Of a stretch of DNA of 64,000 bases, positions 7,636 through 25,073 are shown one piece after another. Where the stretch lies: positions 1 through 64,000 of the IMG/VR virus record IMGVR_UViG_3300035698_006802. The stretch is one strand, 5' to 3'. The position numbers and the translations under genes are program-made. The notes under the pieces are model-generated. The model did not search any database, was not told the origin of the DNA, and was given only the letters and a program-made list of their open reading frames with translations. Each line of letters opens with the position of its first letter. Within the stretch, counting starts at the first letter, position 1. Origin of the DNA: a virus.

Positions 7636-8138
7636 TTGGGGGGCTCCCACCAACCGAGCAGGTTGTCTAGCTCTTTCCACATACTAACAGTGGCGGCTGA
7701 CCCTGGGACGGCACGGAGAGCCTTGCGGAATCCCTTGTGCTCTTTCTTGTACATGAACAGACGATGGTCTCGGGAGTCCCAGCAGTTGCGGACATTGGCG
7801 ATGCGATCCGCCAGCTTGAGGGTGATGGCTTCGAGGCTCTTGGCGATCTTCGGGTAGGTCTTGGTGTGCCGCTCCTGGCGATTCTTACCGGGTTCATCTG
7901 TGACGCAGAACACTACCTCTGCAACCTTGGGGCCGAACTTGGACCTCAGGTCTTCCATAGAGGTCTCTGTGTCCTCCAGGGTGTCATGGAGCCACGCTGC
8001 AATGAGAAGATCCCCTTGGATGTTGAATTCCCCCAGCACCCGCACGACATCTGCAAGGTGCTTGGTGTAGGGATCATCCATGTACTTCTGCCCCTTGTGG
8101 GCATTGGCAGCAAACCGCTTGGCATCTTCCTGTGTCAT
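7632..8138 (-). CDS. RelA/SpoT-type HD phosphohydrolase
   Basis: A 168-residue stand-alone HD-domain protein matching the hydrolase half of RelA/SpoT and the small MESH1-like enzymes: HKGQKY near the N-terminus, H27, then AAWLHDTLEDT (H51, D52, with ED at 55-56) and LKLADRIANVRN (D111). These residues bind Mn2+ and cleave the 3'-pyrophosphate of (p)ppGpp in the family. There is no synthetase, TGS or ACT domain. Breaking down host alarmone during infection is the simplest role; related nucleotides such as NADPH are alternative substrates for MESH1-type enzymes. It is in an operon with the XRE regulator. Confidence 0.82.
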   Translation of the reverse strand: MTQEDAKRFAANAHKGQKYMDDPYTKHLADVVRVLGEFNIQGDLLIAAWLHDTLEDTETSMEDLRSKFGPKVAEVVFCVTDEPGKNRQERHTKTYPKIAKSLEAITLKLADRIANVRNCWDSRDHRLFMYKKEHKGFRKALRAVPGSAATVSMWKELDNLLGWWEPPK

Positions 8139-8157
8139 CAGGTCTGTTCCTGGGGGC

Positions 8158-8280
8158 TCATCTTGGACACTGAGTGCTCCAGGGCGAGGGTTGTGATGAG
8201 GGACACTGTACGCGGGGCGGCTCGAACATGTTCACGAAGTACGGGGAAGGCCGGTATGGGATTCTGCCCCGCTTGCTCAT
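8158..8280 (-). CDS. very small basic protein, 40 aa
   Basis: The ATG at 8280 overlaps the TGA of the upstream gene (ATGA), and the frame runs 40 codons to a TGA at 8158 (MSKRGRIPYRPSPYF ... TQCPR). It fills an otherwise empty 138-bp gap inside a tightly coupled operon, which is the main argument that it is real. It is rich in Pro and basic residues, with two Cys. Function unknown. Confidence 0.5.
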   Translation of the reverse strand: MSKRGRIPYRPSPYFVNMFEPPRVQCPSSQPSPWSTQCPR

Positions 8281-10642: not shown

Positions 10643-10660
10643 CAGGTACTCTCTCCTCTC

Positions 10661-10692
10661 CTGTACTACGCGGAACCGGGGGAGTTGAAACC
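10661..10692 (-). promoter_or_regulatory. leftward bipartite promoter (site D)
   Basis: The minus strand reads GGGGTTTCAA, 12 bases, CGCGTAGTA, CAGGAG. It starts right after the stop of the VWA gene (TAG at 10694-10696) and drives or regulates the AAA+ gene starting at 10642. Confidence 0.65.
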
Positions 10693-10693
10693 C

Positions 10694-13675
10694 CTAGATT
10701 GCCGTTTTCAGCGGAGTGCCACGCCGCAGCCCCCGGAAGTCGAGCAGGGTTGCCAGCTTTCGAACCAGCTCTTGGGGCAGTTCCGAGACAGTCTGTGTGT
10801 ACACAGAGTCCGGGAAGACCTGTGTCACATAGGACGCACCGGAACCGATGCCCACACCGACCACATGGATTCCAGATTCCTTCGCCAGCCTGATTTGACG
10901 CTGGATGACTTCTTTGTGCCCACCGTTGGGCTGCCCGTCGGTCACTACGAACATGATTCGGTGTGCCTCTCGACGCTCTGAAAGGGCCTCTAGGCCAAAC
11001 TGCACACCGTCTGCCATGGGAGTCCCGCCGACCGCACGGGTGTTGGCAAACCTCCACTTGGTTGCGGTGAATCGCTCCTCGAAGGTCTTGAAGATGTCAA
11101 TGTGGATGTACTGGCACCTGTGGAAGTGGCGGGTGCTGGTCTCTCCTGGGCGGGTGTTGCTATTCCAACCACCAATGCCATCACGGAATCCAATTGCCAT
11201 GACAGGGCAGCCCAAGGCATCGAGGGGTTCCGTCAGTGACAGGAATACCTTGGTGGCTATCTTGAGGCGCTCTCCGATCATGGAGGAGGACTCGTCCATG
11301 ATGATCACAGCCGCTAGGGAAGTGTCGATCTGGGCCTCTTCATCGAAGTATGCCCGGTTTGGCATCCTTCCGCCCCGCAGGCATGCCACGTCATCCACGA
11401 ACATCCGCTCGGACAAACCACGACCCCTGCGTGTGCCGTGGTCGATTGCGGTCTGTTCTACGGACTTGACCAGTGTGCGGAGCCTTGCCCTCAGGTATGC
11501 ACACTGTGTCTTGACCGAGTCCAGGATATCCTGTGCTCGGGAGATGTCTCCCATACGCCCTGCTGTTGAAGGGGGCACCATTGCCACGGTGTCCTGTGTG
11601 GTGTCATAGGGGCGGTACGGTTTTTCTCCGGGCTTGCAGGTTGAATCTTCCTTGTCGAAAACCTCATCAAACCCATTTGCAAGGGCTTCCTCCAGTTCGA
11701 GGAGTCCAGTGTCTTCCTGGTTCTCTGCACCGTCGATGAAGTCCTGTGCAGCACCACTCCAGTCTACGGGGTCCGGGTCCCACTGGTGGCCACCACCAAT
11801 CGGGGAGTCTCCTTCCTGCTGCTGACCATCACAATCTCCTTCCTCGGGGTCATCGTCTCCATCGTCTCCATCGCCGGAGTCTTTGTCGCCGGAGTCTTTG
11901 TCGCCGGAGTCTTTGTCGGAGTCGTCGTCGGAGTCGGAGTCGTCGTCGGAGTCGTCGGAGTCGTCGGAGTCGGAGTCGGAGTCGTCGTCGTCGGAGTCTT
12001 CATCGTCGGGGTTGCAGTCATTGTCGTCGCTGTCGTCGTCGGCACAGTCGGAGTCGTCGGAGTCGTCGGCACAACCGTCGTCCCCTTCGTCGGACTCGTC
12101 GTCGGAGCCACCTTCGTCGGAGCTACCTTCGTTATCATCGGAGTCTTCGTCGGAGCTACCGGAACTTTCGGACTCATCCTCGCCATCGGAGTCCTTGTCA
12201 TCGGAGCTACCAGAGCCTTCAGAGTCATCGTCGGAGTCATCGTCGGAGTCGTCTTCACCCTTGGAGCCCTTGGAGCCCTTGGAGCCCTTGGAGCCCTTGG
12301 GCTTGTCATCGGACTCCTCGCCTTCGGACTCCCCGCCTTCAGACTCCTCGCCTTCGGACTCCCCGCCTTCAGACTCCCCGCCTTCGGACTCCCCGCCTTC
12401 AGACTCCCCGCCTTCGCCACTCTCGGAGCCCTCGGAATCGTCGTCGGACTCCGCACCACTCTCGGAACCTTCAGACTCGTCATCACTCTTGTTGTCGTCG
12501 GAGTCTTCCCCGTCATCACTCTTGTTGTCGTCGGAGTCTTCCCCGTCAGAATCCGAGGGGTCCTCGGGGTCCGAGGGATCCTTAGGCTCATCGTCATATT
12601 CTACAGCATCATCATTGTCTGCGGCCTTGCCCTTGCCTTCAGTCAGGTCTACATCTTCCTGATACTCACAGACCGTACACACCAGGACGCCCTTTCCCTT
12701 GACGGTGCCCCCAGCACCATCACTCTTGGGGTGCACCTTCAGCTTGGAATTTGGGGCACCGCAGTTTGGGCATCCCTGTGGAGGTCCACCCTTGCCGGCA
12801 TCAGGCTCTTCCTTGTCTGCCTCGTTCTGGATGACGCCCAGCACTAGCATCGCAATGCGCAGGGAACCCGAGTCGTCCCGGGGAGTCAGGGCAATCGCTT
12901 CTCGCAGGAGATCCGACAGCGGGCCCTTGAGAACGAAATCTGCCGCTTTGCTGTTCTGTTCCCGGTATTCATCCAGTGCCTTCCGCTGGCGGGTGGTGTT
13001 GTACCCGAGTCCCACATCCCGGAAAACAGCCGTGATGATGGACTGGGTACTGTTGAGGCGTTCTTCAGACACACCCTTCTGGAGTGCCTTCAGGCGGATA
13101 TCCTTCTCTTGATCGAGGATGTATGCCTGAAGCTGGTGCATCTTGGGGCTGATGCCCGGGTATTCACGGCAACCGCACCGCTCAATGCGGATGTCCTCTA
13201 CGATGTTGCTCCAGGACAGGATCGCCCCGCTCAGCTTTGCCCAGTTGGGAGATGCGGTCCAGACCTCATTCACGAGATCCCACATCTCGCGGGCTCCCAC
13301 ACTCCGACGCCGGCTGTACTTCGTGTGGAGAGCTTCGTGGTCTGCCCCTCCGATCAGTGCCATTGCGAGCGGAAGGGGTAGCTTCTCGGGAGTGCCCGCG
13401 ATTACGATGTGGGGCTGGCTGACATCCTCAGCGTTGGAACGCTTGCACCACTCCTTCACATCTTCGAGTGTCGGCTTGTTTCCAGCGTTCCGGCTTGCCC
13501 AGGAGCACAGGTGCTTCACGAAAAAACGAAGAACCCAGCGGTCGCGATTGAAGAATCTGCCACCATAGGAGTAGACTCGACGGACGTTCGGCCCCAGGAT
13601 CGCATCTACGGATCGCTGGTGGGCCATGCGGTAGCGTGACCCTTGGAGCATTGGCATTGTGGGGTTGGGGATCAT
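10694..13675 (-). CDS. CobT-like VWA protein with giant acidic linker
   Basis: A 993-residue protein. The ATG at 13675 has GGAGAG seven bases upstream; an in-frame GTG at 13690 lies inside promoter copy E. Residues 1-300 are a helical N-terminal domain (HEALHTKYSRRR, possibly metal-binding). A zinc ribbon follows (CPNCGAPNSKL ... CTVCEY). Then comes a roughly 290-residue Ser/Asp/Glu/Gly linker. The C-terminal VWA domain has the MIDAS set DESSSM, GGTPM and TDGQPNGG. CobT has the same order of parts (helical region, acidic linker, VWA) and pairs with CobS, here encoded just downstream. The linker is far longer than usual. A cobalt-insertion role cannot be proven from sequence. Confidence 0.8.
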   Translation of the reverse strand: MIPNPTMPMLQGSRYRMAHQRSVDAILGPNVRRVYSYGGRFFNRDRWVLRFFVKHLCSWASRNAGNKPTLEDVKEWCKRSNAEDVSQPHIVIAGTPEKLPLPLAMALIGGADHEALHTKYSRRRSVGAREMWDLVNEVWTASPNWAKLSGAILSWSNIVEDIRIERCGCREYPGISPKMHQLQAYILDQEKDIRLKALQKGVSEERLNSTQSIITAVFRDVGLGYNTTRQRKALDEYREQNSKAADFVLKGPLSDLLREAIALTPRDDSGSLRIAMLVLGVIQNEADKEEPDAGKGGPPQGCPNCGAPNSKLKVHPKSDGAGGTVKGKGVLVCTVCEYQEDVDLTEGKGKAADNDDAVEYDDEPKDPSDPEDPSDSDGEDSDDNKSDDGEDSDDNKSDDESEGSESGAESDDDSEGSESGEGGESEGGESEGGESEGGESEGEESEGGESEGEESDDKPKGSKGSKGSKGSKGEDDSDDDSDDDSEGSGSSDDKDSDGEDESESSGSSDEDSDDNEGSSDEGGSDDESDEGDDGCADDSDDSDCADDDSDDNDCNPDDEDSDDDDSDSDSDDSDDSDDDSDSDDDSDKDSGDKDSGDKDSGDGDDGDDDPEEGDCDGQQQEGDSPIGGGHQWDPDPVDWSGAAQDFIDGAENQEDTGLLELEEALANGFDEVFDKEDSTCKPGEKPYRPYDTTQDTVAMVPPSTAGRMGDISRAQDILDSVKTQCAYLRARLRTLVKSVEQTAIDHGTRRGRGLSERMFVDDVACLRGGRMPNRAYFDEEAQIDTSLAAVIIMDESSSMIGERLKIATKVFLSLTEPLDALGCPVMAIGFRDGIGGWNSNTRPGETSTRHFHRCQYIHIDIFKTFEERFTATKWRFANTRAVGGTPMADGVQFGLEALSERREAHRIMFVVTDGQPNGGHKEVIQRQIRLAKESGIHVVGVGIGSGASYVTQVFPDSVYTQTVSELPQELVRKLATLLDFRGLRRGTPLKTAI
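11862..12580. repeat. low-complexity Ser/Asp/Glu-coding repeats
   Basis: Encodes the acidic linker of the CobT-like protein. It contains families of tandem units: GTCGGA-type units (SDD repeats), GCCTTCGGACTCCCC-type 15-mers around 12316-12415 (ESEGG repeats), GGAGCCCTT units around 12260-12300 (KGS repeats) and an exact duplication around 12482-12545 (DDNKSDDGED). Such arrays expand and contract by slippage, so length probably varies between isolates. Confidence 0.9.
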
Positions 13676-13685
13676 CGTCTCTCCG

Positions 13686-13723
13686 TTCACCCCTACTACG
13701 CGGAACCTGTGGGTTTGAAACCT
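13686..13723 (-). promoter_or_regulatory. leftward bipartite promoter (site E)
   Basis: The minus strand reads AGGTTTCAA, 12 bases, CGCGTAGTAG, GGGTGAACGG. It is one of the best copies. It lies 11 bp upstream of the CobT-like start at 13675. The rightward element at 13730-13749 lies back to back with it, so the 105-bp gap is a divergent control region. Confidence 0.7.
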
Positions 13724-14237: not shown

Positions 14238-14717
14238 ATGCCCTACGATGCAGACAAGCCTGCTGACATCACCGAAATGACGGACAAGCTGAAGAAGACC
14301 TATGCCAATGTGAGTGCCACTGCAGCTCGACAGGCAATCGCTGTCTTCAACTCCGTAATGAAAGAGCACAGCGATGAGGGCCGTGCATGGGCGGGTGTCT
14401 ACTCACAGCTCAACAAGCGGGGGATCTCCAAGAAAGCATCCGTCCGACTTGCAGAGGACATCATCAAGGTTGCAAACCTGCACCCGGCACACAGGGAAGC
14501 ACTGTTGGCCATCGCCAAAGAGGCTGCTGCCTGGGTCCCTGGTCAGCTGAAAGAGGAGACCTGGACGCCCGGGGAAATGGATGTCAACTCCCCTTCTGTT
14601 GAGGACGCACCCACAGGTTCACAGATGCCCCCAGCCAGTGACAACAACAATGAGGACCTGGACGAGGAGTGGGGGGAGCTGGCTGCTCGGAATGCTCGGA
14701 TGCGTGAAGACCGCTAG
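14238..14717 (+). CDS. ChaB-like domain protein
   Basis: A 159-residue protein beginning MPYDADKPADIT. Residues 30-62 (ARQAIAVFNSVMKEHSDEGR followed by AWAGVYSQLNK) resemble the ChaB family pattern AFNSAxxEYxDExxAxxxAWxxVK. ChaB itself is a small Escherichia coli protein of unclear role, and ChaB-like domains occur in several large DNA viruses and phages. The C-terminal half is acidic and disordered, rich in Asn, Asp and Glu. Its stop shares the bases CTAG with the convergent Nudix gene. Confidence 0.55.
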   Translation: MPYDADKPADITEMTDKLKKTYANVSATAARQAIAVFNSVMKEHSDEGRAWAGVYSQLNKRGISKKASVRLAEDIIKVANLHPAHREALLAIAKEAAAWVPGQLKEETWTPGEMDVNSPSVEDAPTGSQMPPASDNNNEDLDEEWGELAARNARMREDR

Positions 14718-15466
14718 TGCCTGTTGAACTTGTAGACCTTCGCAGGGCGTGAACTGGTCAGCCTCTTGCCCGGGGCTTCCTCGATCACACCATCGGTGCA
14801 CATTCTCTTGAACCTACGCCTGAAGCTGGAGGGTTCGTAGGTCTTGCCCTTGATCGCCTCATAGACAGAGCGAAGCTCGGCCACGGTGAAGGTGGGAGGA
14901 ACCAGTTCGAAAGCGATGGGGGCGTAGTCGATCTTGCCCCTGATACGCTCGACTCCAACCCGCAGGATCTCTACATGATCGAATGCGAGGGGCATCTTGC
15001 CCACAACCTCGTGTTCCACAGAGAACCACTGGGCGTCAGAGGCATCGTCCCCGGCGTGTACCCTGTGTACCTTGTCGGGAGAAATCAGGGCGTAGAACGC
15101 CACCGTGATGATCCGCAACCGGGGATCCCGGTTGGGCTTCCCAAATGTGTAGAGCTGTTCGAGGAAGCAGGAGCCCCGAGGGAGCCCCGTTTCCTCTGAA
15201 AGCTCCCTGTGGGCAGCTTCCTCGACACTCTCCCCCTGACACTCGAAGCCGTCTCCGACCTCCACAAAGCCACCTGGGAGAGCCCAGGAGCCCTTGTGGG
15301 GGTGACCCTTGCGTCGGATGAGCAGCACCTTGAGATCGGTGTCGGTGACCGTGAAGATCACCAGATCGGCGGTCACTGACGGCTTGGGGTATTCCTGCTT
15401 CTGATAGCCCTTCAGGAATTCTTCTTCGGTCATGTCTGCCGTGTGGTCAAGCTTGCCAGTCATCAT
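14714..15466 (-). CDS. Nudix hydrolase with NrtR-like winged helix
   Basis: A 250-residue protein. Residues 30-160 are a Nudix domain with a complete Nudix box (GX5EX7REUXEEXGU realised as G-FECQG-E-SVEEAAH-RELSEETGL), preceded by WALPGGFVEVG. Residues 185-250 are a winged helix (FTVAELRSVYEAI ... SSFRRRFKRM) like that of NrtR, the Nudix-related repressor of NAD biosynthesis operons, and of ADP-ribose pyrophosphatases. An intact Nudix box argues for catalysis, probably on ADP-ribose, although NrtR repressors usually have a decayed box. It is the last gene of the operon with pncA, pncB and nadE, which supports a role in NAD metabolism or its control. The start overlaps the kinase stop. Confidence 0.85.
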   Translation of the reverse strand: MMTGKLDHTADMTEEEFLKGYQKQEYPKPSVTADLVIFTVTDTDLKVLLIRRKGHPHKGSWALPGGFVEVGDGFECQGESVEEAAHRELSEETGLPRGSCFLEQLYTFGKPNRDPRLRIITVAFYALISPDKVHRVHAGDDASDAQWFSVEHEVVGKMPLAFDHVEILRVGVERIRGKIDYAPIAFELVPPTFTVAELRSVYEAIKGKTYEPSSFRRRFKRMCTDGVIEEAPGKRLTSSRPAKVYKFNRH

Positions 15467-17157
15467 TTCATCCTCAGGCTGAAGACATCCTTGCCCCTTG
15501 GGAACACCACCCTACCGCCTTGCTGGGTCAGATGCATGTCGCCACCGAGGACAGGGTCGTCTACCACCTTCAGTGCGGGGGAGCCCTTGCGGGCAGAGAA
15601 CAACTCCAGCTTCTCATCCTCTGTCATGCAGATGCACACCCCGGAGTCGAGAAGAACGAAGTTCAGTCCCGAGAGGTTCACATCTTCGATGACACGCACA
15701 TCGTAGGACTTGTAGTCACTGCTGAAGCGGAGCACGAGCCGGTCGTACTTGCCATTCTTGGAACCGACGACCATGAGCACCCCGGCTGTGGGGGTGTTGT
15801 CGAACTTGGCATCCAGGATGCGGTAGTCGTCCAGCTCTTGGATGTGAAGCTGGTGTGCCATCCCTGTCTCGGGAAGCAGTGACACCCATTTGGATCCCAG
15901 GAGATCCTGAACCACGATGCCCTGGTAGAGCTTCGTGGCGTGCTCCAAGCAGGTGGTCACGGGAAGGCTGCTTGCTAGGACCCTGGAGCCTACATCGTTG
16001 AGCATGATTTGGAGAATCTGATCCTGGTTGCGAACGTAGATGCGACCCCCGTGGGCCATCACTGCATCTGCACGAAGGATTACGGGGATCGGCAGTCCTG
16101 ATGACACATCGAGCAGCTTGAGCATCCCCTGGGAGGAACCCGCAACTATGGGCCGTCCCATCCTCGGAGTGAAGCCCACCCCAGAGATCCCATGGACGGG
16201 CCCATGAAGGCGCCGCTTGCCATGGTAGATGCCCTCGTCTGTCCAGACGAGGAGATCCCCGCGGTGGTCCCACATGCCACGAACGGCACCCTCGAATTCC
16301 AGCAGCTTCGAGATGTCCAGCTTGTTGGTGCCCTTGATGAGGCGCACAGTGGGTAGCACCACAAGGGTGCCCTGGAGGGACTGCGGTGGGGGAAGTCGCT
16401 GGCCCCGCTCAAGGACAGCCTCGTACCATTGCCTGTAGACGGGGGGAATGACATCGAAGGGAAGCACGACCCTCGGGACTCGAACGGAAGTGTTGAACAC
16501 GGAGACCCCAGCGGCCATCCTGTGCTCCATACCCTTGATGGAAGGGTGTTTTCCCTTGTAGGGGTGGATGCCTGTGAACAGGTTGAAAGTCACACATGCA
16601 AAGGAGAACCAGTCCGACAGCTCTGTCCAATCCAGGTTGGACACCTGGGGGTCTCGGATGGACGCCATGATGACTGTGGCTGGGTAGTGGGGGGTCTGGT
16701 AGCTGTCCACGTCGATGGCGTAGACTGTCTGGAACGCAGGGTCGACCAGAAAGTTCATCTCGTTGAGGTCTACTGCCAGGATTCCGGCCTTGTGGGTGTT
16801 GCCCACCCTCTCCTGAAGGGACCTCACCAGATCGAGAGTCATCTGTGGGGAGACGTTGTTTCGCTGGCGGAACACAGGGGGGAACAGCTCACAGAGGGTG
16901 TGGGTGTCGGGGAGGAACCGCATGGTGTAGCCCAGGGGTGTCCCCTGCTTGTCGTTGACTACACGTTCGGGCTTGATGATATCGGGGTCGGTGAGTGCCT
17001 GCAGTTCTCGGATTTTGCCCACTGCCAGCATCTTGGTACGGTCATGGTAGATCTTGTATGCCGTGGTGCCCTTGACGTAGACGTTCCCTTCTCCGCCACC
17101 ACCAACGTAGTCAGCCTTTGACAAGTTGACGGCTGTGCCATGGACGTAGACTCTCAC
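15463..17157 (-). CDS. protein kinase with C-terminal beta-propeller-like region
   Basis: A 564-residue protein starting at a GTG that overlaps the phosphatase stop (GTGA). The kinase part has a glycine loop YVGGGGEGNVY (17-27), the ATP-anchoring lysine in TAYKIYH (K35), a catalytic loop HKAGILAVDLNEMNFLV (about 126-142) with Asp and Asn in place, and AIDVDSYQ as the metal-binding DFG equivalent. Residues 290-564 are repetitive beta-rich segments (GDLLVWTDEGIYHG, GGRIYVRNQDQILQI) that look like a beta-propeller. Atypical kinases of this kind are partners of PP2C and TerY-like VWA proteins in the TerY-P triad described for bacterial tellurite/stress loci. All three lie in this operon. Confidence 0.82.
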   Translation of the reverse strand: MRVYVHGTAVNLSKADYVGGGGEGNVYVKGTTAYKIYHDRTKMLAVGKIRELQALTDPDIIKPERVVNDKQGTPLGYTMRFLPDTHTLCELFPPVFRQRNNVSPQMTLDLVRSLQERVGNTHKAGILAVDLNEMNFLVDPAFQTVYAIDVDSYQTPHYPATVIMASIRDPQVSNLDWTELSDWFSFACVTFNLFTGIHPYKGKHPSIKGMEHRMAAGVSVFNTSVRVPRVVLPFDVIPPVYRQWYEAVLERGQRLPPPQSLQGTLVVLPTVRLIKGTNKLDISKLLEFEGAVRGMWDHRGDLLVWTDEGIYHGKRRLHGPVHGISGVGFTPRMGRPIVAGSSQGMLKLLDVSSGLPIPVILRADAVMAHGGRIYVRNQDQILQIMLNDVGSRVLASSLPVTTCLEHATKLYQGIVVQDLLGSKWVSLLPETGMAHQLHIQELDDYRILDAKFDNTPTAGVLMVVGSKNGKYDRLVLRFSSDYKSYDVRVIEDVNLSGLNFVLLDSGVCICMTEDEKLELFSARKGSPALKVVDDPVLGGDMHLTQQGGRVVFPRGKDVFSLRMK

Positions 17158-17957
17158 GTCTCATCTCCCAGGTAGAGGGTGGCAACTGCGAGATCATCGT
17201 AGTGCTGCCAGCCGTTCTTGACGCAGAACCGATTGAGGAACCCATTGCGGATTCTCCGCACGACGAATTCCCCTGTGGTGTTCTTCACAGCCATGATCTG
17301 TTCCACCACTTCCCCCACAGGTACCCGAACAAGCTCTGTGGGGGTCTTCTTCTGGAAGGACTGTGCACCATCCGAGATGAGGGTGACCATGTCGAATTCA
17401 GCCACCGGGAACCGGAACACCAGAGGATCGAACCCCCGGGCGATCTCCCAGGATGGCTCTTCCTCGTCCTTCTCCGTGTCATAGAAGTAGATCGTGCGGT
17501 AGCCCGAGTCAGTCAGCTCGTTGTAGGTGTCGAGTCGGTCGGGGTCAAGCTGGTAGGACAGGTAGTTCGGGGCACCTGCTGCAAACTCAATGCTGTGGTA
17601 CTGCAGGAACCCGTGCCGATTCCGAGCAGCCACTACACCGTCTCCCCAGACCCTGACCACTACCTCATCTCCTTCCACGACAGCAATGAGCAACGTGGCG
17701 TCGAGACATTGGAGGGGGAGTCCAGTCGGAACAGACATAGCGAAAGCTTTGAGAGCAATCTGCAGGGGTGTGGGCTTCTTCCCCTCCCGCACCTGTTTTG
17801 CTGCTGCCAGACACATGAACCGGGACCCGAAGTCAGTGGCCGGAGAACTGGAGCAACCATCCGACAGGAACGCTGCTTTCAGGTCGATGTCGACAACGGC
17901 ATAGTCCTGGCACACGGTGTGCTGGCTTCCCATGGCAAAGTAGCGGTCAACGTTCAT
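17154..17957 (-). CDS. PP2C-type Ser/Thr phosphatase
   Basis: The ATG at 17957 (MNVDRYF) is chosen because AAGGA lies upstream and longer readings would run through the previous gene. It encodes 267 residues with PP2C/PPM motifs: QDYAVVDI (D18), FLSDGCSS (D33, G34), DATLLIAVV, WGDGVV, LISDGAQSF and a C-terminal DDLAVATLYL. The acidic residues bind two Mn2+/Mg2+ ions. An insert around 150-180 is rich in Asp and Tyr. It presumably reverses phosphorylation by the kinase encoded just downstream. Confidence 0.87.
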   Translation of the reverse strand: MNVDRYFAMGSQHTVCQDYAVVDIDLKAAFLSDGCSSSPATDFGSRFMCLAAAKQVREGKKPTPLQIALKAFAMSVPTGLPLQCLDATLLIAVVEGDEVVVRVWGDGVVAARNRHGFLQYHSIEFAAGAPNYLSYQLDPDRLDTYNELTDSGYRTIYFYDTEKDEEEPSWEIARGFDPLVFRFPVAEFDMVTLISDGAQSFQKKTPTELVRVPVGEVVEQIMAVKNTTGEFVVRRIRNGFLNRFCVKNGWQHYDDLAVATLYLGDET

Positions 17958-18135
17958 GGGATGTTCCTTCATTTCTTCGAGCCTTGATGGCGGCCCGCAG
18001 TTCGCCCACAACGGCAGCAACGATGGGGTCCGCATAGACCCCATACTCAAGCCGGTCCTGAATCAGGCGGTGGAAATCGTCGGATTCCAGCAAGGAATCG
18101 ATCATCTCAGCGACAACGGGAATCTTGCCGTTCAT
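17947..18135 (-). CDS. small helical hypothetical protein
   Basis: A 62-residue protein from ATG 18135, overlapping the upstream stop as ATGA (MNGKIPVVAEMIDSLL ... ARRNEGTSHER). Acidic N-terminal helices and a basic C-terminus. Its end overlaps the phosphatase start by 11 bp. The 13 bases CATCCCATGAACG occur at both its start junction and the phosphatase start. Function unknown. The position within the triad suggests an accessory subunit. Confidence 0.6.
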   Translation of the reverse strand: MNGKIPVVAEMIDSLLESDDFHRLIQDRLEYGVYADPIVAAVVGELRAAIKARRNEGTSHER

Positions 18136-18458
18136 GGGATGCTTTTCCAATCAGGCTGCGGGTTCTTTGCTACCCACTGCTTCACAAGCTCTCGGGCTTC
18201 TGCGGCATAGATCTGGGCTTTCTCGTTTCTGGTGTGTTTCCAGGACTGGTGCTCGGTCAGAATCCGCTCGGTACGGTGCGTGCAGAGGCCTGAGCTGCAG
18301 ACCAGAATCCGACCCCCGGCATCGATGTGGTGCCATCCAGTCGGGATGGTCTCGACCTGCTCGTAGTTGGAGTGCCCCAAGTAGCGGCCATACCCCGTGC
18401 CCGCGGGTGCTGAAATGCCACAAAGGTCACAAATGTAGGAAGCAGACTGTCGTCCCAT
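18132..18458 (-). CDS. zinc-binding hypothetical protein, 108 aa
   Basis: Contains YICDLCGIS near the N-terminus and LVCSSGLCTHRTERI about 40 residues later, i.e. two Cys pairs that could form one zinc site. Between them, GYGRYLGHSNYEQVETIPTG looks like a compact beta region. The C-terminus is helical (ARELVKQWVAKN). ATG 18458 is preceded by GGATTC. It lies in the TerY-P/NAD operon. Function unknown. Confidence 0.65.
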   Translation of the reverse strand: MGRQSASYICDLCGISAPAGTGYGRYLGHSNYEQVETIPTGWHHIDAGGRILVCSSGLCTHRTERILTEHQSWKHTRNEKAQIYAAEARELVKQWVAKNPQPDWKSIP

Positions 18459-18474
18459 GGGAGAATCCTCCGAG

Positions 18475-18621
18475 CTAGAACAGGTTTCCCTGGCTGTCGA
18501 TCATGCCCTCATAGCCACACCACAAGCACCGGGCGTGGACTGAGCACCCATCAAACCCCGTGGTATCGAACCCCGCGAAGATGGAGTGCCAACCAATCCA
18601 ACAAAGGAAGTGCTTGACCAT
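18475..18621 (-). CDS. small zinc-knuckle protein, 48 aa
   Basis: A minus-strand frame from ATG 18621 to TAG 18475 (MVKHFLCWIGWHSIFAGF ... ARCLWCGYEGMIDSQGNLF). GGGGGAG lies six bases upstream of the start. It contains C7, C30 and CLWC, enough for a small zinc site. It exactly fills the gap between the VWA gene and the next operon gene, and its codon use matches neighbours. Function unknown. Confidence 0.65.
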   Translation of the reverse strand: MVKHFLCWIGWHSIFAGFDTTGFDGCSVHARCLWCGYEGMIDSQGNLF

Positions 18622-18634
18622 GAGGGCACTCCCC

Positions 18635-19378
18635 CTAGAAGGTGAGAGACTGCGAGGGGCCTCCTGTGCCCAGCGACTGGGACTGAGAACTCACCGATTT
18701 GGACATGAAGGACGCGAGCCTTGCCAGCGTCTTCGTGTCTGCCTTGTCCACAGCGATGTACTGGGAGAACCCCGCATCCTTGTGGAGCTGATCGAGGTAG
18801 TGGTTGAGACCCGTGGTGGAATCGACGTTGACTCCTACGAGGATGCTGACCAGGGACTCCAGGTTCTCACCCTTCACGGCGTCGGTCAGGGCTTCCTTGA
18901 GGGAGTTGACCGTCAGCTTCGAGGCGTTCTCCTGACCATCGGTCAGGACGAAGACGATGCCGTTGGCCTCGAAGTCCTGGTCGATGAGGTCCTTGCCATA
19001 GCGTGCCACGGACTCGACTACGTTGACCGAAGCATCGTAGAGGGCTGTGGTGTAGCCGGGGGACACGATGTCCTTGTAGTCGTCCTCGTTGCACTGGCTC
19101 AACGGCTTGAAGCCGTGAGCCTCCTTCACGTGGTTGTCGAAGGTGACGAGACGCAGCATGAGATTGTCAGCTCGGGGTGACAACCGGCACGCCTTGACCA
19201 CTTCCTGGATGCAGCGGTTGAGATCCTTCTGGAAGCCTGAGATCGAGCCAGAGGCATCCGCCGTGATTCCGACGAGGGTGTACTCCGAAGCGCCCAGGTC
19301 TTCGACACGGGTGGCACTGAAGCCGTACCCTGTGCCGTCGGTGTGGGTGCTCATGTTCTGTGAGTTCAGGACGGGCAT
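18635..19378 (-). CDS. TerY-like VWA-domain protein
   Basis: A 247-residue, single-domain VWA protein. The MIDAS is complete: DASGS (41-45), the Thr in PGYTTALYD (about 104-112), and LTDGQENAS (about 144-152). It ends with a Ser/Gln-rich tail. The size and lack of other domains fit the TerY branch found with PP2C and kinase partners in TerY-P triads. Here those two are 1.5 kb downstream in the same operon, with three small proteins in between. The VWA probably binds metal-dependently to a partner or phosphoprotein. It is only 3 bp downstream of pncA. Confidence 0.82.
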   Translation of the reverse strand: MPVLNSQNMSTHTDGTGYGFSATRVEDLGASEYTLVGITADASGSISGFQKDLNRCIQEVVKACRLSPRADNLMLRLVTFDNHVKEAHGFKPLSQCNEDDYKDIVSPGYTTALYDASVNVVESVARYGKDLIDQDFEANGIVFVLTDGQENASKLTVNSLKEALTDAVKGENLESLVSILVGVNVDSTTGLNHYLDQLHKDAGFSQYIAVDKADTKTLARLASFMSKSVSSQSQSLGTGGPSQSLTF

Positions 19379-19381
19379 GGT

Positions 19382-20194
19382 CTACTCCTTCAGGAAGTCG
19401 GTGGTGAGGGCGGTGCGAGCACCCATGGCAGTCAGGTCAGCGATGAACTGCTTGCCAAAGTCGGAGAACATCGTGGTTCCGGGGGGATCCGGAACATCGG
19501 ACATGGCGTCGGTGAGCAGCACGAGCTTGCTGACCGATGCGGGGTCGAAGTTGGTGGCGATATCGCGGACGGTGTGGGCCACGCAGTGAGAGCGAGCCTG
19601 ACCCGCGAGCAGAACGATGTCTGCTGCTTCCAAGGTCTCGATGAGCCTTGCGTTGAGCTGTGTGGTGTGGTCGGACGGGTCCGGAACCTCTGCCTGGACT
19701 GCGGAGAAGTGCTCCGTCCAGATGTTCGAACCCTTGGTCACGTAGTCGGTGGTGGCGAACCGGGACTCCCAGTCTGCCAGAGCTTCGTAGAGGACGGGCA
19801 GCACGTTGTGACCCGAAGACCCGATGAGGCAGTGGGGAGGCCAGATGCAGTGCGGGTAGCGACCGCTGGCTTCCAGGTCTTCGAGGTACTTCAGGGTCTT
19901 GGTGAAGAACGACGGGACAGTGGTTGTCCAGACTCCGCTCTTCAGATCGGCTGCGGTCATGATGGTGAAGGGTGACGGGTTGTTCCCGGCGGAATCCTTG
20001 TACCAGATCGGGTGGGCGATATCCACGAGACGGTGGCTGTCGAGGGTAACATGGATGTCATCGATCTTGCCCTTGAGGCGGTTGATCATGGCAGCCAGAC
20101 GCTCCATGTCCTCGGTGGCACCGGGGACGAAGAGGGAGCCGTCCTTGTGGCAAAAATCATTCTGGGGGTCAATTGCCAGCAGATGAATGTTCAC
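19382..20194 (-). CDS. pncA: nicotinamidase, isochorismatase-like family
   Basis: A 270-residue protein. The catalytic triad of the family is present: D9 in AIDPQNDF, K154 in VTKGSNIW and C204 in ARSHCVAHTV. The PncA-type metal site is also there (D52, H54, H61 in LDSHRLVDIAH), as is WPPHCLIGSSG, the WPxHC motif of nicotinamidases. The enzyme converts nicotinamide to nicotinate. The longer than usual C-terminal part (FSDFGKQFIADL) may form an extra helix. The product feeds the phosphoribosyltransferase encoded upstream in the operon. Confidence 0.9.
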   Translation of the reverse strand: MNIHLLAIDPQNDFCHKDGSLFVPGATEDMERLAAMINRLKGKIDDIHVTLDSHRLVDIAHPIWYKDSAGNNPSPFTIMTAADLKSGVWTTTVPSFFTKTLKYLEDLEASGRYPHCIWPPHCLIGSSGHNVLPVLYEALADWESRFATTDYVTKGSNIWTEHFSAVQAEVPDPSDHTTQLNARLIETLEAADIVLLAGQARSHCVAHTVRDIATNFDPASVSKLVLLTDAMSDVPDPPGTTMFSDFGKQFIADLTAMGARTALTTDFLKE

Positions 20195-20209
20195 GATGTT
20201 CTCCTAGAG

Positions 20210-20434
20210 CTACTTGAAGCAGTTTCCAGTACAGGTGAGTTTCCCGCAGAAGCCACAATGGCCCTGCGAGGAGTCGAAGGTTGTGAACCCCGAAATGGGG
20301 TCCGGGAGGGTTTCAGGTGGGCCAGGGATGCGGTCTCCGCTGGCATCGTGGATGATGTTGCCGCTGGCATCAGTGAGCCAGGTGTTGCCGTCCCTATCGG
20401 TCGTGTGTCGGACATCTCTGCCGTCCCGTCCCAT
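20210..20434 (-). CDS. small zinc-knuckle protein, 74 aa
   Basis: Starts MGRDGRDVRHTTDRDG. The N-terminal half carries repeats of DxxG type (RDGNTWLTDASGNIIHDASG), as in short beta-hairpin repeats. The C-terminus HCGFCGKLTCTGNC has four Cys that could bind one zinc. It lies between nadE and pncA with only 3 and 15 bp gaps. Function unknown. Confidence 0.65.
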   Translation of the reverse strand: MGRDGRDVRHTTDRDGNTWLTDASGNIIHDASGDRIPGPPETLPDPISGFTTFDSSQGHCGFCGKLTCTGNCFK

Positions 20435-20437
20435 TGC

Positions 20438-21550
20438 TTAGATCTCCGGGAGGGTGTCAGTGAGGATGCCAGCCTTGACGAGGTCTGCCCGGGTACCCAT
20501 GGTGGGGATGTTGGGGTTCATCTTGTGTCGTGTCTGGCGTTCGATGCGACGGGCAGCTGTGAGGAGCTTGTTGACCAGCTTGGTGGGGATGCCCTTGAAG
20601 GGGTTGTTCTTGGGGCCCCGCGGTCCATCCATGTGATAGGCCATAATATCCTCGAAACGGGCACGGACACCGGGCTCATCAAAGAGCCATTCCTCCTGGG
20701 TGAACATGGTGGTCGTTCGGCAGCGAGGATCTGCGCTCGCCCCAGACCCTGCCTCAGCATCCAACCACCGGCTCACCCGTTCGATGAGACCCACACTCGT
20801 GTAGGCACCAGTTTCCGTGTCGATGTAGCTGTAGAAGGTCTGCCCGTACTCCTGGGCGTCGAACCCGAAGTAGTTGGCAAGCTCACTCTCATCTGTCATG
20901 GGGTTTGAAGTGCCCCAGAGATCCGCAGTGGGCTTGGTGTTGATGATGTCCTTGGGGACACCGAGGGCAAGTGCGAGCTGATAGACCTCACCCTTGGACA
21001 GCATCGCGAGGGGGTTGGTATCTACCTCACCATCGCCACCCTTCTGGTAGTAGCGGAGCCACCGGTCCTCACATTCATTCCCGGTGCCATGTCGGATGCC
21101 ACCGCCCATCATGCGGTTGAAGCCACGACCCACAGGGGCACGGAGACAGGAGCGGATGGACCCCAGGATGGTGGGGTCAGCCAGAGCCTTCTCATGCAGC
21201 CGAACCCGAATGATTGGGTCCGACTCCCCATAGGCAGCTTCGATGCCTGCAAGCATCGTGTCCACCAGGGACTCGTAGATCTCGGTCAGGTCTACCTCGA
21301 TGAGCTTGACATCGAAGGTCTTGGCTACCTCACGGGCAGCTTCCAGCGATTCCGGGCTGCTGTTGATGCCCTGGTAGGCAGTGGTGACGTTCTCCGCCCC
21401 GAGAGCCTGAACGAGGAGTCCCAGCATGACAGCGGAGTCCACGCCACCCGACAGATCGAGTTCTGCACGTCCAAGCCCTGTCTCGATGTGGTACTTGCGG
21501 ATTGCCTGCACGCGGTTGTGGAGGAGCTTCTTGGGGTCAAGTACGGGCAT
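20438..21550 (-). CDS. nadE: NAD synthetase
   Basis: The ATG at 21550 overlaps the stop of the upstream gene as TGATG. It gives 370 residues. The PP-loop LDLSGGVDSAVMLG (SGGVDS at 34-39) marks an adenylating N-type ATP pyrophosphatase, and TNPLAMLSKGEVYQLA and TADLWGTSNPMTDESELANY match the NadE substrate segments. There is no N-terminal glutaminase domain, so it should be the ammonia-dependent form that converts nicotinate adenine dinucleotide to NAD+. It is longer than the typical 275-residue bacterial enzyme, with extra segments around 225-300. Confidence 0.88.
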   Translation of the reverse strand: MPVLDPKKLLHNRVQAIRKYHIETGLGRAELDLSGGVDSAVMLGLLVQALGAENVTTAYQGINSSPESLEAAREVAKTFDVKLIEVDLTEIYESLVDTMLAGIEAAYGESDPIIRVRLHEKALADPTILGSIRSCLRAPVGRGFNRMMGGGIRHGTGNECEDRWLRYYQKGGDGEVDTNPLAMLSKGEVYQLALALGVPKDIINTKPTADLWGTSNPMTDESELANYFGFDAQEYGQTFYSYIDTETGAYTSVGLIERVSRWLDAEAGSGASADPRCRTTTMFTQEEWLFDEPGVRARFEDIMAYHMDGPRGPKNNPFKGIPTKLVNKLLTAARRIERQTRHKMNPNIPTMGTRADLVKAGILTDTLPEI

Positions 21551-23043
21551 CAGTGCATTCCTCGTCGGAGGTTGGAGTAGAGAGTGTCCACGAGGGCTTG
21601 GGTGTCCTCGCTGTAGGCGGGACGTGTCTGCCGCACTACCCACGCCAGAGCTTCGGCGGGGGTAGTGCGGAGACTGAGGGGAAGCTCTGGGAGTCCTGTG
21701 AGGATGACGCCCTGGTCGTGCGGGGCTTTCTCGCCGTCCTGGAGGATGACTCCAGTGGGGCCGTTGTAGGCGGCCTGTCCTAGGAAGGGGCGAAACACTA
21801 CTGGCAAGCCGGGGATGCTCTCTTTTCCTGCACCGGGTTCGTCCCCGAATTTCATGGTCGGGGTATCGCCGGTCTGTGTGACCTTCCAGACGGCGGCAAC
21901 GCGGTCTCGGGTCAAGGGGTCCCCGGGGGCCTTTACGATGTAGCCACCGTAACCATACAGCTGGTCCTCGGGCTTGACGCCCGTGAACTCCCGCAGTTTC
22001 TCGAAGTTGTGGGTCTTGGCCTCGGTGAACCCATCTTCCAGGATGAAGCGGGGATCGATGTCACAACTTTCCGCCATGGAGCAGGCAATGAGGTACTGGC
22101 TTTTGATGTCGCCGGAATCGAACCGCACACTGTCACCACGGTCCGGGTCTTCTGCGATGAGCTTGAACGCCTCGGGAAGTCCCGACCGGATGGTGTCGAA
22201 GGTGTCGAGCAGGAAGCTGCTTGCCTTGGGGACGCGATCTCGCATGGCTCGGAAGGCGGCTTTGTCGCTGCCGTACCGTTGAACGTGCTCGTGACCCATT
22301 GTGCCCACGGGCACCAACCCGAGTTCTTTGGCCAGGGCGACATTGCTGGTTGATCGGAGACCAGCCTCCCTGGCAGCCTGGAGAGCGATGCGGTGCTGTT
22401 CAATGCAGGTGGCAGCACGCATCCCGACCTCGAAGATGCGGGTAGGGTCTCCACCCACTGCATCGATGAGGCGGGTGACCCGATTGAACACATGCTCGTG
22501 GTAGGCCGCGTAGTTGACGGTGATTTCAGGTGCCGGGACACCAATGGCATCCAGAGTCTGCAGCACGATGTCCTTCTGCTCCTGGCAGGTGACGTTGTGG
22601 ATGAGGATGGGCAGCCGCTCGGGCTCCAGCTTGGCGAAGGTGGCGATCTGAATGCGGTAGTGGAGTTGGAGGGCCAGGGGCTCCAACCAGGAGACAAGAG
22701 CAGAGGGGCCGGTCACGGTGAAGACGGGCTCACGGTCGAAGAACCACGACCCCTTGGGGAGAGCATTGACCACCAGCTTGTCCTGCTGGCTCATTGCCGC
22801 CCAGTAGCCACCACCCATCCCGTAGCCACAGGCAGTCAGGTAGTCCTGGGATGATCTGGACTCACGGGAGTCTTCCCACTTGGCGGGCAGCAGGGACCGG
22901 ATCATCTCCTCGACATCGAACGGGAGGTAGTGTGAGCCGCCCCTGCGATGGGAGTAGTAGAAGGTTTCCTCACGGAGCGGCCAGCCTGCCTCAGCCATCG
23001 AGAATTTGTAGGCATCAGTCGAAAGTATGGAATGGGAATCCAT
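21550..23043 (-). CDS. pncB: nicotinate phosphoribosyltransferase
   Basis: A 497-residue protein. ILSTDAYKFSMAEAGW (6-21) is the N-terminal signature of this family, LRSTSNVALAKELGLVPVGT followed by MGHEHVQRYG is the phosphate-binding region, and RFDSGDI and ILEDGFTE follow in order. The motifs resemble nicotinate rather than nicotinamide phosphoribosyltransferase (no NAMPT-type GTD/VAG segment seen), which also fits the neighbouring nicotinamidase. It would make nicotinate mononucleotide from nicotinate and PRPP. It is the first gene of the leftward operon, with a sigma70-like promoter 38 bp upstream of the start. Confidence 0.85.
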   Translation of the reverse strand: MDSHSILSTDAYKFSMAEAGWPLREETFYYSHRRGGSHYLPFDVEEMIRSLLPAKWEDSRESRSSQDYLTACGYGMGGGYWAAMSQQDKLVVNALPKGSWFFDREPVFTVTGPSALVSWLEPLALQLHYRIQIATFAKLEPERLPILIHNVTCQEQKDIVLQTLDAIGVPAPEITVNYAAYHEHVFNRVTRLIDAVGGDPTRIFEVGMRAATCIEQHRIALQAAREAGLRSTSNVALAKELGLVPVGTMGHEHVQRYGSDKAAFRAMRDRVPKASSFLLDTFDTIRSGLPEAFKLIAEDPDRGDSVRFDSGDIKSQYLIACSMAESCDIDPRFILEDGFTEAKTHNFEKLREFTGVKPEDQLYGYGGYIVKAPGDPLTRDRVAAVWKVTQTGDTPTMKFGDEPGAGKESIPGLPVVFRPFLGQAAYNGPTGVILQDGEKAPHDQGVILTGLPELPLSLRTTPAEALAWVVRQTRPAYSEDTQALVDTLYSNLRRGMH

Positions 23044-23068
23044 TGCACGGCTCCATCGGAGTTTGTGT

Positions 23069-23094
23069 CCCCGTGGACTCTTTCTAGCACGGGG
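23069..23094. promoter_or_regulatory. candidate operator in the pncB promoter
   Basis: An inverted repeat CCCCGTG-N12-CACGGGG surrounds the -10 element of the leftward promoter. It is well placed for a repressor that blocks RNA polymerase. The NrtR-like protein or another phage regulator could bind here. Only the symmetry and position support it. Confidence 0.4.
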
Positions 23095-23108
23095 AGCCCT
23101 TTAGTCAA
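23081..23108 (-). promoter_or_regulatory. sigma70-like promoter of the NAD/TerY-P operon
   Basis: The minus strand has TTGACT (23103-23108), a 16-bp spacer and TAGAAA (23081-23086), 38 bp upstream of the pncB start. It lacks the TTTCAA/CGCGTAGTA element used by other leftward genes, so this operon may be expressed early by host polymerase. Confidence 0.5.
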
Positions 23109-23205
23109 ACCCCGAAGGAGAGATTTTTTCAAAGTACCTTTAATCCCAAGGTCGGGAGTACTCTTTGGTTCGGATTTTCTTTCTCTGCCGGGGGTAGAGT
23201 GCCCC

Positions 23206-23616
23206 ATGCCTGAAGTGCCCCCGCGTCCCTGGTTGAAGGGCGAACAAGAAAGCTACTCCAGCCTCGTGCTTGAGGTCAGCATCTGCCTGGATGAGCACGG
23301 GCGTGTGTTCTCTGCCCACGGCCTACAAGACAAGCAGGACGTATCCACTGCAATGAAGTGGTCTTCTGGCGGTCAGGAGCAGGTGGCACATGGGATGTTG
23401 ACTGAGGCAGTGCGACGGGAAGCCCTTCTGGACTTGCTGATTCAGATGAGTCGGGATCCCGAATTCTTGCCTCGACTCAAGGCAGCTTCCCCTGAGGAAA
23501 GAGAGACTGCCCTCAAGAAGATGGCAGTCTCTCTGCATGTCCAGATGGCGAACACCATCAGCCGTATCGCGGCGGCAGCCCTTGGTGAGGCATACCTGAC
23601 GGTCTCTGAAGACTAG
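23206..23616 (+). CDS. hypothetical helical protein, 136 aa
   Basis: Starts at ATG 23206 (MPEVPPRPWLKGEQESYS). The N-terminal region is beta-like (SLVLEVSICLDEHGRVFSAH), the rest helical (EALLDLLIQMSRDPEFLPRL, VQMANTISRIAAAALG). Divergent from the NAD operon. Its stop shares CTAG with the convergent gene at 23613. No family recognised. Confidence 0.65.
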   Translation: MPEVPPRPWLKGEQESYSSLVLEVSICLDEHGRVFSAHGLQDKQDVSTAMKWSSGGQEQVAHGMLTEAVRREALLDLLIQMSRDPEFLPRLKAASPEERETALKKMAVSLHVQMANTISRIAAAALGEAYLTVSED

Positions 23617-25073
23617 ATCTGGAGTCCTCTGCTCGAACGCACTGAGCGGATCCGGTCCAACAGCACAGTCTTGCCACCGGGGATCTTGCTGGCTCTCGGA
23701 ATCCCGAGATCGTGAAGGGCATACTTCCGCAGGAGGGTCAGGCTCTGGCTCCGAAGCTCTGTGAATGCCATGGAGCGGAGAGGTGCCCACATGATTGCTG
23801 GCTCGACAATCACCACGGGCTCGACCACCACGGGCTCGACCACCACGGGTGCGACCACCACGGGCTCGACCACCACGGGCTCGATCACCAGGGTTGCGGG
23901 TGTTGAGAACGTTGCAGGTGTGGTAACCACCGGAGCAACCTTGAGAGGGTTGGCCACCAGAGGGTTGGCCACCAGAGGGTTGGCCACCAGAGGGTTGGCT
24001 GTGAGGGGCTTTGAGGTGTCCCGGCTTTCCAGCACTCCCCTGATGCTTTCCAGCAGAGCTGGTTTTCCACCCGGGAGCTTGCTTGCCTTCTTGATCCCCA
24101 GCTCTCTGGCTGCGAACTTCCTGAGAAGCAAGAGGGTCTGCCCTTCAAGCTCGGAGAAGGTCATGGAGCACAGGGGAGCCCAGATGTTGAGCCCTTCGGT
24201 CTTTGGTATCTTGAGAGGTTCGGGGGTGGCCGTCCCCAGGACGATGGGCTCAGGGGCTACAACCTGGAGGGGTTTCTGGTTGCGGGTCTTCCTGCGTCCA
24301 GAGCGGCGCTCGTAGTTGGCCCTGGCGGTCTTCTTCCGACAGCTGTCAGAGCAGTACTTCCTGCCTTCCATGGGGGGCAGAGGGCAGCCCTCACGAGCAC
24401 AGGTGACCCCTTCCACGATAGGCACGGGTACCACAGGGCGAATCCCTCTGTTGTTGACCACCTTCCATGCAGCGCTCTTGGCAACTTCGATGTGCATGAG
24501 GATCTTCGCCACCCGTGCTGTGATCTCGCGAGAACGCTCCATGGCCTGCCGGAAGCTCTGGAGTGATGCTGTTGCCCCCTGCCTCAAGATGGAGTGTACG
24601 AGGCTGTCGAGAAGGCGTGCATCATGATCTACGCCTGCAACCTCCACGTCGACCACATTGCGCTTCCAGCGGGCTTCATGTTCACCAGAAGGCACTGAGA
24701 GCTTGTCCCACAGGATCTCCACTTCCTTCTTCTGTTTCTGCACTTGTGTTGCCAACTTGTTGGCACTCTCTGTTGCCTGTGCGATGTCACGACGCCGCTG
24801 CTCCAGGTAGGCATCCCCTTTTTGTACGGGCTTGTTCTTCTGGAGGAGGGTCTTGGCACTGGGTCGCTTGTCGGGGGTCTTGACTCGGTGGTTCTCCCAC
24901 TCAATCTCTTGAGCGATGACGAACTTGTTGACTGAGTCCCCGTAGATACGCTTCCCACAGACTTTGCAGGAAAACACAGCCTGTTGAACGTGCCCTCCCC
25001 AAGGGTTGTCCAGAAAGATCTCGATGTTTGTGGCACTGCATTTCGGGCATTTTGGCTTGAACGTTGTGTTCAC
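23613..25073 (-). CDS. zinc-ribbon protein with two SAP-like repeats
   Basis: A 486-residue protein starting at GTG 25073. Order: N-terminal zinc ribbon (CPKCSATNI ... CKVCGKRIY), a basic coiled-coil region (about 75-130), a helical middle, and a second Cys cluster (CAREGCPLPPMEGRKYC, CRKK, about 225-255). Then come two homologous segments of about 55 residues: WAPLCSMTFSELEGQ ... KASKLPGGKPALLESIR and WAPLRSMAFTELRSQ ... RASKIPGGKTVLLDRIR. They resemble SAP or Rho N-terminal DNA/RNA-binding helices. The linker between them is built of NPLVA and EPVVV repeats. Probably nucleic-acid binding. Confidence 0.7.
   Translation of the reverse strand: MNTTFKPKCPKCSATNIEIFLDNPWGGHVQQAVFSCKVCGKRIYGDSVNKFVIAQEIEWENHRVKTPDKRPSAKTLLQKNKPVQKGDAYLEQRRRDIAQATESANKLATQVQKQKKEVEILWDKLSVPSGEHEARWKRNVVDVEVAGVDHDARLLDSLVHSILRQGATASLQSFRQAMERSREITARVAKILMHIEVAKSAAWKVVNNRGIRPVVPVPIVEGVTCAREGCPLPPMEGRKYCSDSCRKKTARANYERRSGRRKTRNQKPLQVVAPEPIVLGTATPEPLKIPKTEGLNIWAPLCSMTFSELEGQTLLLLRKFAARELGIKKASKLPGGKPALLESIRGVLESRDTSKPLTANPLVANPLVANPLVANPLKVAPVVTTPATFSTPATLVIEPVVVEPVVVAPVVVEPVVVEPVVIVEPAIMWAPLRSMAFTELRSQSLTLLRKYALHDLGIPRASKIPGGKTVLLDRIRSVRSSRGLQI
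23795..24005. repeat. coding minisatellite (EPVVV and NPLVA repeats)
   Basis: Two short tandem arrays inside the SAP-like protein gene: repeats of CACCACGGGCTCGAC around 23811-23886, and of GGTTGGCCACCAGAG around 23946-24000. They encode a flexible spacer and are likely to vary in copy number. Confidence 0.85.

Follow-up and report, generated by a model that had tools for sequence, protein, structure and literature searches.

A phage operon joins nicotinamidase-centred NAD+ salvage to a TerY-P-like VWA, phosphatase and kinase triad

Results

The 64,000-nucleotide stretch analysed here (the window; positions 1 to 64,000 of IMG/VR virus record IMGVR_UViG_3300035698_006802) is part of a 98.7-kb IMG/VR contig, and its open reading frame (ORF) list and sequence reveal eleven tightly packed leftward ORFs at 14714-23043 (Table 1). 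This operon unites salvage of nicotinamide adenine dinucleotide (NAD+) by PncB, NadE and PncA with a triad of VWA protein, PP2C phosphatase and kinase, and with an NrtR-type regulator. At each of its ten junctions the genes overlap or are separated by no more than 16 bp, in line with the close packing that an earlier sequence-only reading of this DNA had described, and the identities which that reading gave to the PncB, NadE, PncA, VWA, PP2C, kinase and Nudix/winged-helix genes are supported by profile searches and predicted folds.

Table 1. Genes and sequence features of the operon, in window coordinates, with gene lengths in amino acids (aa); AF2, AlphaFold2
Feature	Position	Strand	Preferred start	Basis
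Inverted repeat TCCCCGTG-12-CACGGGGA spanning the putative -10	23068..23095			perfect 8-bp arms
Candidate promoter TTGACT-16 nt-TAGAAA	23081..23108	-		by-eye reading
pncB, nicotinate phosphoribosyltransferase, 497 aa	21550..23043	-	23043	TIGR01513 E=1.5e-32
nadE, NAD+ synthase, ammonia-type, 370 aa	20438..21550	-	21550	PF02540 (NAD_synthase) E=1e-26
74-aa protein, C-terminal Cys motif CGFCGKLTCTGNC	20210..20434	-	20434	relative in locus L210
pncA, nicotinamidase, divergent ~270-aa subfamily	19382..20194	-	20194	profile match to PDB 2h0r E=1.3e-9
VWA protein, 247 aa, disordered Ser-rich tail SSQSQSLGTGGPSQSLTF	18635..19378	-	19378	AF2 and Foldseek
Small Cys protein, 48 aa	18475..18621	-	18621	ORF alone, no family
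Small Cys protein, 108 aa	18132..18458	-	18458	ORF alone
Helical protein, 62 aa	17947..18135	-	18135	ORF alone
PP2C-family phosphatase, 267 aa	17154..17957	-	17957	PF13672 (PP2C_2) E=1.5e-11
Kinase, 564 aa, YegI/TerY-P-like domain ~1-258 and beta-propeller ~280-564	15463..17157	-	17157	AF2, Foldseek, hhalign
NrtR-type regulator, Nudix and NrtR winged helix, 250 aa	14714..15466	-	15466	PF00293 2.9e-20, PF21906 NrtR_WHD 1.3e-13

The three salvage enzymes appear to be intact. Against the PDB, PncB matches the nicotinate phosphoribosyltransferases 2f7f (E=8e-20) and 4yub (~1e-19), with Nampt-like chains at ~1e-6, and its motifs GTMGHEHVQR and VRFDSGD are largely kept among relatives. This ranking and the NCBIfam match rule out the nicotinamide phosphoribosyltransferase suggested by phrog_448, and by these profile comparisons the enzyme is a nicotinate phosphoribosyltransferase. 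NadE has no CN-hydrolase domain, exceeds the family cut-off of TIGR00552 (E=3.9e-25), and begins at an ATG that overlaps the pncB stop (TGATG). PncA is divergent, reaching only 0.0012 with the Pfam Isochorismatase model; its profile matches yeast and mycobacterial nicotinamidases with every catalytic position aligned, and in the comparison with yeast Pnc1 these are the catalytic Asp, Lys and Cys plus the Asp/His/His that bind metal. In each family the catalytic residues are all but invariant over 125 sequences, and in PncA the residues D9, D52, H54, H121, K154 and C204 are present in 125/125.

The triad shows a similar degree of conservation. In PP2C, D18, D33-G34, D106, D196-G197 and D254 are invariant in all 124-125 sequences, and in the kinase D130 and D149 are found in 125/125 and K35 in 124/125. 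The AF2 model of the kinase (pLDDT 87, pTM 0.85) consists of a kinase domain followed by an all-beta C-terminal propeller, and its Foldseek matches are kinase domains, the propellers of DDB1 and clathrin, and LRRK2, a kinase-WD40 protein. Searching PDB sequences with the profiles of VWA and PP2C returned no match. The VWA protein is weak in Pfam (8e-4) and clear in predicted fold (AF2 pLDDT 83; Foldseek VWA/integrin I domains), with conserved metal-ion-dependent adhesion site (MIDAS) residues D41, S/T43, S45, T111 and D147. Its C-terminal tail (18635-18690) is near-invariant, disordered and of low pLDDT, and is common to phage, Patescibacteria, Acidobacteriota and Burkholderiales proteins (consensus FVSxSISSQSQALGTGGPSQ...F/I, the final residue being F in 100/150 and I in 45/150 sequences). 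Such retention of a disordered Ser-rich tail, in phages and from phylum to phylum, hints at a site of docking or phosphorylation.

TerY-P triads likewise bring these three kinds of protein together in an operon, and the sequence-only reading had called this triad TerY-P-like. The YegI-type kinase, the PP2C and the VWA MIDAS bear this out, but because the kinase ends in a beta-propeller, where TerY-P is described with a zinc ribbon or OB fold (PMC11090510), we would class it as TerY-P-like rather than as a typical TerY-P member; the present triad also differs in being linked to PncA and NAD genes. The E. coli YegI-PphC-YegL stretch is another point of comparison. The kinase matches YegI (hhalign probability 98%, E=8e-14) and the PP2C matches PphC moderately (80%, E=1.4e-5), whereas the VWA protein aligns with YegL over the MIDAS part only (21%, E=0.001), YegL having a Ser-rich C-terminal stretch as well. 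Unlike the operon, the K-12 stretch is without NAD genes, and YegI has no propeller match.

The last gene had been read as a Nudix/winged-helix protein. Both domains are present and over their cut-offs, and as the winged helix is of the NrtR type, the gene is, by its domains, an NrtR-type regulator of NAD genes. It aligns at full length with NF050029 (1.2e-54, under the curated cut-off) and with PDB 3gz5 (9.5e-35). The NrtR family controls NAD genes and senses ADP-ribose, as cited in PMC9503650. The inverted repeat ahead of pncB is a possible operator. Short palindromes of differing sequence were also seen by eye near promoter-like TTGAC(A/T) 5' of the leading gene in the related loci L188, L212, L226 and L008, and these too are possible operators.

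The core recurs well beyond this genome. A kinase search recovered 18 viral loci, in all 18 of which PncA, VWA, PP2C and kinase lie in the same order and on the same strand. Profiles of PncA, VWA and the kinase, run against viral sequences, gave 97 dereplicated groups, and exactly A-V-P-K (A, PncA; V, VWA; P, PP2C; K, kinase; below, b, PncB; e, NadE; R, NrtR; d, NadD) is found in 80 of them, so that for this core the gene order which the sequence-only reading proposed to look for in related phages does recur. A genome scan yielded 62 bacterial loci, 40 with A-V-P-K in the same order and the others with A-V-K (mainly Myxococcota) or A-V alone; carriers include Patescibacteria, Acidobacteriota, Myxococcota and Burkholderiales. 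PncA adjoins VWA in nearly all groups (median gap 62 bp). Pairwise distances are correlated among the four core proteins (r 0.57-0.73, against permutation maxima of 0.05-0.10), which suggests that the core is for the most part transferred together. In a combined A+V tree, viral and bacterial tips are mixed (15 changes versus 46 with shuffled labels), consistent with several transfers of the core between viruses and bacteria, in a direction that the tree does not resolve; this is a midpoint-rooted FastTree tree whose supports are modest in places, and the window's own position in it is poorly supported. Occurrence in many bacterial phyla rules out a phage-only module, and mis-binned phage contigs as the full explanation are countered by a Parcubacteria contig carrying the module together with ribosomal protein S12, by a 1.36-Mb Armatimonadetes contig, and by some bacterial loci that fall in taxon-consistent clades. 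Insertions into the core were also seen: ClpB D2-small and Peptidase M41 between PP2C and kinase (L009:8230-9975), and, in the interval from VWA to PP2C, a further, large VWA protein (L014:5890-8460).

Linkage of this core to NAD genes is frequent and flexible. A same-strand PncB, NadE, NadD or NrtR homologue lies in the stored flanks of 51 of the 97 viral groups, and at least one of the four accompanies 41 of the 62 bacterial loci, NadD being called with a small home-made profile that may include related nucleotidyltransferases; NrtR profile matches occur in 20 viral groups and 33 bacterial loci. Orders vary (b1-e1-A-V-P-K-R-d; A-V-b2-eG-P-d-K; A-V-P-b2-e2-K; R-A-V-P-K-b2-eG), and three NadE types have been recruited, one fused to a CN-hydrolase glutaminase domain. 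On large viral contigs carrying both, NadE lies at most 10 kb from the core in 16/26 (expected 2.1; nominal P ~5e-12) and PncB in 11/23 (expected 1.9; P ~6e-7), P values that assume independent contigs, yet the contigs are related.

The neighbours are not limited to NAD synthesis. NADAR, macro domain, NadM-like plus Nudix, ADP-ribosylglycohydrolase, KptA and phosphoribosyl pyrophosphate (PRPP) synthetase genes recur near the core, as do NAD-dependent DNA ligase, RtcB and Thg1; NAD kinase is a further neighbour, and such loci appear to form an NAD, ADP-ribose and RNA-repair neighbourhood. Individual cases of NADAR, KptA, RtcB or Thg1 near the core can be seen at L016:1880-4045, L236:16424-17710 and L215:17787-18536. 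In Variovorax WDL1 an A-V pair without PncB or NadE sits on an 816-kb replicon beside NAD kinase, Nudix and macro domain genes, with an NrtR-like gene also nearby.

The small proteins of the operon are less widely shared. The 74-aa Cys protein is 54% identical (E=1e-21) to a protein just downstream of the L210 kinase (12150-12368), and the 48-aa one has a single weak match downstream of the L009 kinase (E=0.015). No relative of the 108-aa Cys protein or the 62-aa helical protein was found. Small Cys proteins as parts of the core are thus unsupported, a clear relative having been found for the 74-aa one only.

The window also carries phage hallmarks (ribonucleotide reductase, UvsX, clamp loader and a Dda-like helicase), and because some relatives that carry the complete operon are contigs of 402-619 kb, the DNA probably comes from a huge phage. 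Just downstream of the operon (8277-13690, minus strand) are a CobS/MoxR-like AAA ATPase (9398-10642) and an acidic CobT-like VWA protein of 998 aa (10694-13690). L002 and L051 likewise have the two genes near the operon, and L017 has the ATPase there; jumbo phages are known to carry MoxR-vWA pairs (PMC7824862). Nine tRNA genes, three of them for Gly, lie at 23-2714 on the minus strand.

Discussion

The analysis shows the gene content of the operon, the families of its proteins, their intact active sites, and the linkage and co-evolution that relatives have kept. These lead us to propose, with a probability of roughly 0.6, that the operon is a phage version of a widely distributed module, with a VWA-PP2C-kinase switch arranged about a nicotinamidase and joined to NrtR-controlled, deamidating Preiss-Handler salvage. 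From the same results we infer the cell chemistry, the kinase substrate, the direction of the switch, the NrtR ligand and operator used here, and any anti-defence role. Cleavage of NAD+ would release nicotinamide and ADP-ribose, and the latter would relieve repression by NrtR such that the operon is expressed. PncA would then convert nicotinamide to nicotinate and PncB nicotinate to its mononucleotide, NadD (the host's, or from a phage gene outside the fragment) would form the dinucleotide, and NadE would amidate this to NAD+. VWA may bind PncA, and perhaps other salvage enzymes, via its metal site; the A-V pair, as the minimal form, suggests that it is VWA with which PncA interacts directly. 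The kinase might phosphorylate VWA, perhaps on the Ser-rich tail, or an enzyme, with the propeller as a docking or sensing domain, and PP2C would reverse this. There would thus be two controls, the phospho-switch acting post-translationally on salvage flux and NrtR setting transcription. The copies in bacteria speak for NAD homeostasis as the basic function, taken up by phages, and a counter-defence role for the operon is plausible. We would give somewhat less than even odds to the bolder claim that PncA-VWA-PP2C-kinase is an undescribed, phylum-crossing system that switches NAD+ salvage by phosphorylation through a VWA adaptor, and that phages use it against NAD-depleting immunity.

Besides the relatedness of the contigs in the distance test, several observations weigh against this proposal. 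In about half of the viral groups the stored flanks show no NAD genes, and the profiles used in the two viral scans and the genome scan came from kinase-found loci, so that sampling was centred on a known linkage. Of the Preiss-Handler set, PncA, PncB and NadE are present here, and NadD had no PF01467 match within the 98.7-kb fragment; a NadD-like gene does occur in the operons of some relatives, L017 and L008 among them. The single sigma70-like promoter of the sequence-only reading can be made out by eye at 23108-23081, but a consensus scan of 14500-23700 found no such site, and the promoter would be a weak one. That reading had also named separate locations of the two modules in relatives as a reason to abandon the idea of one system, and in some large phages NadE or PncB does lie tens to hundreds of kb away, with PncA staying beside the triad. 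Finally, the related locus L051 (PncA 74% identical; 8001-10093) keeps PncB, NadE, PncA and NrtR and is missing VWA, PP2C and the kinase domain, the first VWA codons after PncA running into a remnant of the kinase propeller. This is either a true deletion or an assembly error; if real, the triad is dispensable there, and salvage genes can persist without it. The idea of one system rather than two neighbours is still favoured by PncA, which is kept with the triad in nearly all relatives, and by the repeated joining of the other NAD enzymes.

It is also possible that the module is purely metabolic, supplying NAD+ for a long, biosynthetically heavy infection with the switch balancing flux and no part in host defence. 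This differs from our proposal in purpose alone, and bacterial chromosomal copies, the PRPP synthetase and NAD-dependent DNA ligase neighbours, and the fact that no dedicated counter-defence gene was seen within the operon all fit it. NrtR and the ADP-ribose-processing neighbours, however, suit NAD+ breakdown products, and NARP1, another phage NAD pathway, is proven counter-defence (PMC12774641). We consider the metabolic explanation a serious contender, if on balance unlikely.

A different view is that the core governs ADP-ribosylation and nicotinamide rather than NAD+ supply, with the phospho-switch gating PncA and the NAD synthesis genes optional. PncA would remove nicotinamide, which inhibits ADP-ribosyltransferases and sirtuins. 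One might then expect what we see in part: PncA alone among the NAD enzymes is nearly always present, the Variovorax A-V pairs without PncB and NadE lie near NrtR-like, macro, Nudix and NAD kinase genes, and NADAR, macro, ADP-ribosylglycohydrolase and KptA genes recur nearby. But PncB, NadE and NadD have been recruited repeatedly, and no ADP-ribosyltransferase emerged as a regular partner, no search having been aimed at that family; we regard this view as decidedly unlikely.

The triad might instead be a TerY-P-like cassette in its own right, serving defence or superinfection exclusion, and share an island with NAD genes through selection for common expression. TerY-P does work as a stand-alone antiphage system (PMC11090510, PMC7699616), and L051 retains NAD genes without the triad. 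Such a cassette would not readily account for the close adjacency of PncA and VWA, for the co-evolution of all four core proteins, or for the module occurring with NrtR in bacterial chromosomes, one of which is verified by a ribosomal gene that shares its contig, and we find it improbable. Chance clustering within a compact phage genome, where operons of mixed function are common, is refuted, since 97 viral groups and 62 bacterial loci were recovered and the expected counts are exceeded many times over, and we give it practically no weight.

How does the proposed module relate to known systems? NARP1 (Adps and Namat) is an NAD+ reconstitution pathway with a proven counter-defence role that is also found in bacterial chromosomes (PMC12774641), and NadV/NadM (NARP2) is common in jumbo phages (PMC9503650, PMC7824862). 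Like the operon, both are sets of phage genes that rebuild NAD+ from nicotinamide; in contrast to them, the operon uses the deamidating PncA-PncB-(NadD)-NadE route together with an NrtR-type regulator and the kinase/PP2C/VWA triad, and its phosphoribosyltransferase ranks with nicotinate enzymes, with Nampt-like chains far weaker, unlike the nicotinamide-using Nampt- or Namat-like transferases of NARP-type pathways. Bacterial NrtR regulons also combine a Nudix plus NrtR_WHD regulator with NAD genes, whereas here the regulator is in a phage and beside a phosphorylation triad. ARG-centred systems share a Nudix regulator, a phosphatase and a vWA protein in an ADP-ribose context, but PMC9503650 describes no PncA, kinase or PP2C core for them, and ADP-ribosylglycohydrolase is only an occasional neighbour of the core. 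Phage NAD salvage and TerY-P triads are, separately, known kinds. In the searchable open-licence literature we found no paper that brings a nicotinamidase together with either VWA/PP2C/kinase or the pair of VWA and phage, and no described phage operon with both modules, in agreement with the sequence-only reading. As far as that literature goes, it is new that salvage and triad are united, that the core centres on PncA, that the kinase bears a propeller, and that all this is spread across phages and bacteria.

Having found this core in phages and bacteria alike, we can ask what it would mean for either. Defence against phages relies centrally on depleting NAD+, to which NARP1 and NARP2-type pathways are the phage answers described so far. 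If our proposal is true, the operon would represent a third, deamidating phage NAD+ route, which an NrtR-type regulator and a kinase/phosphatase switch control and which many bacteria, including Patescibacteria, share. To our knowledge, the inputs and substrates of TerY-P-type phosphorylation modules are not established. The operon, if read correctly, would link such modules to a concrete metabolic target, with PncA and the VWA tail as candidate substrates.

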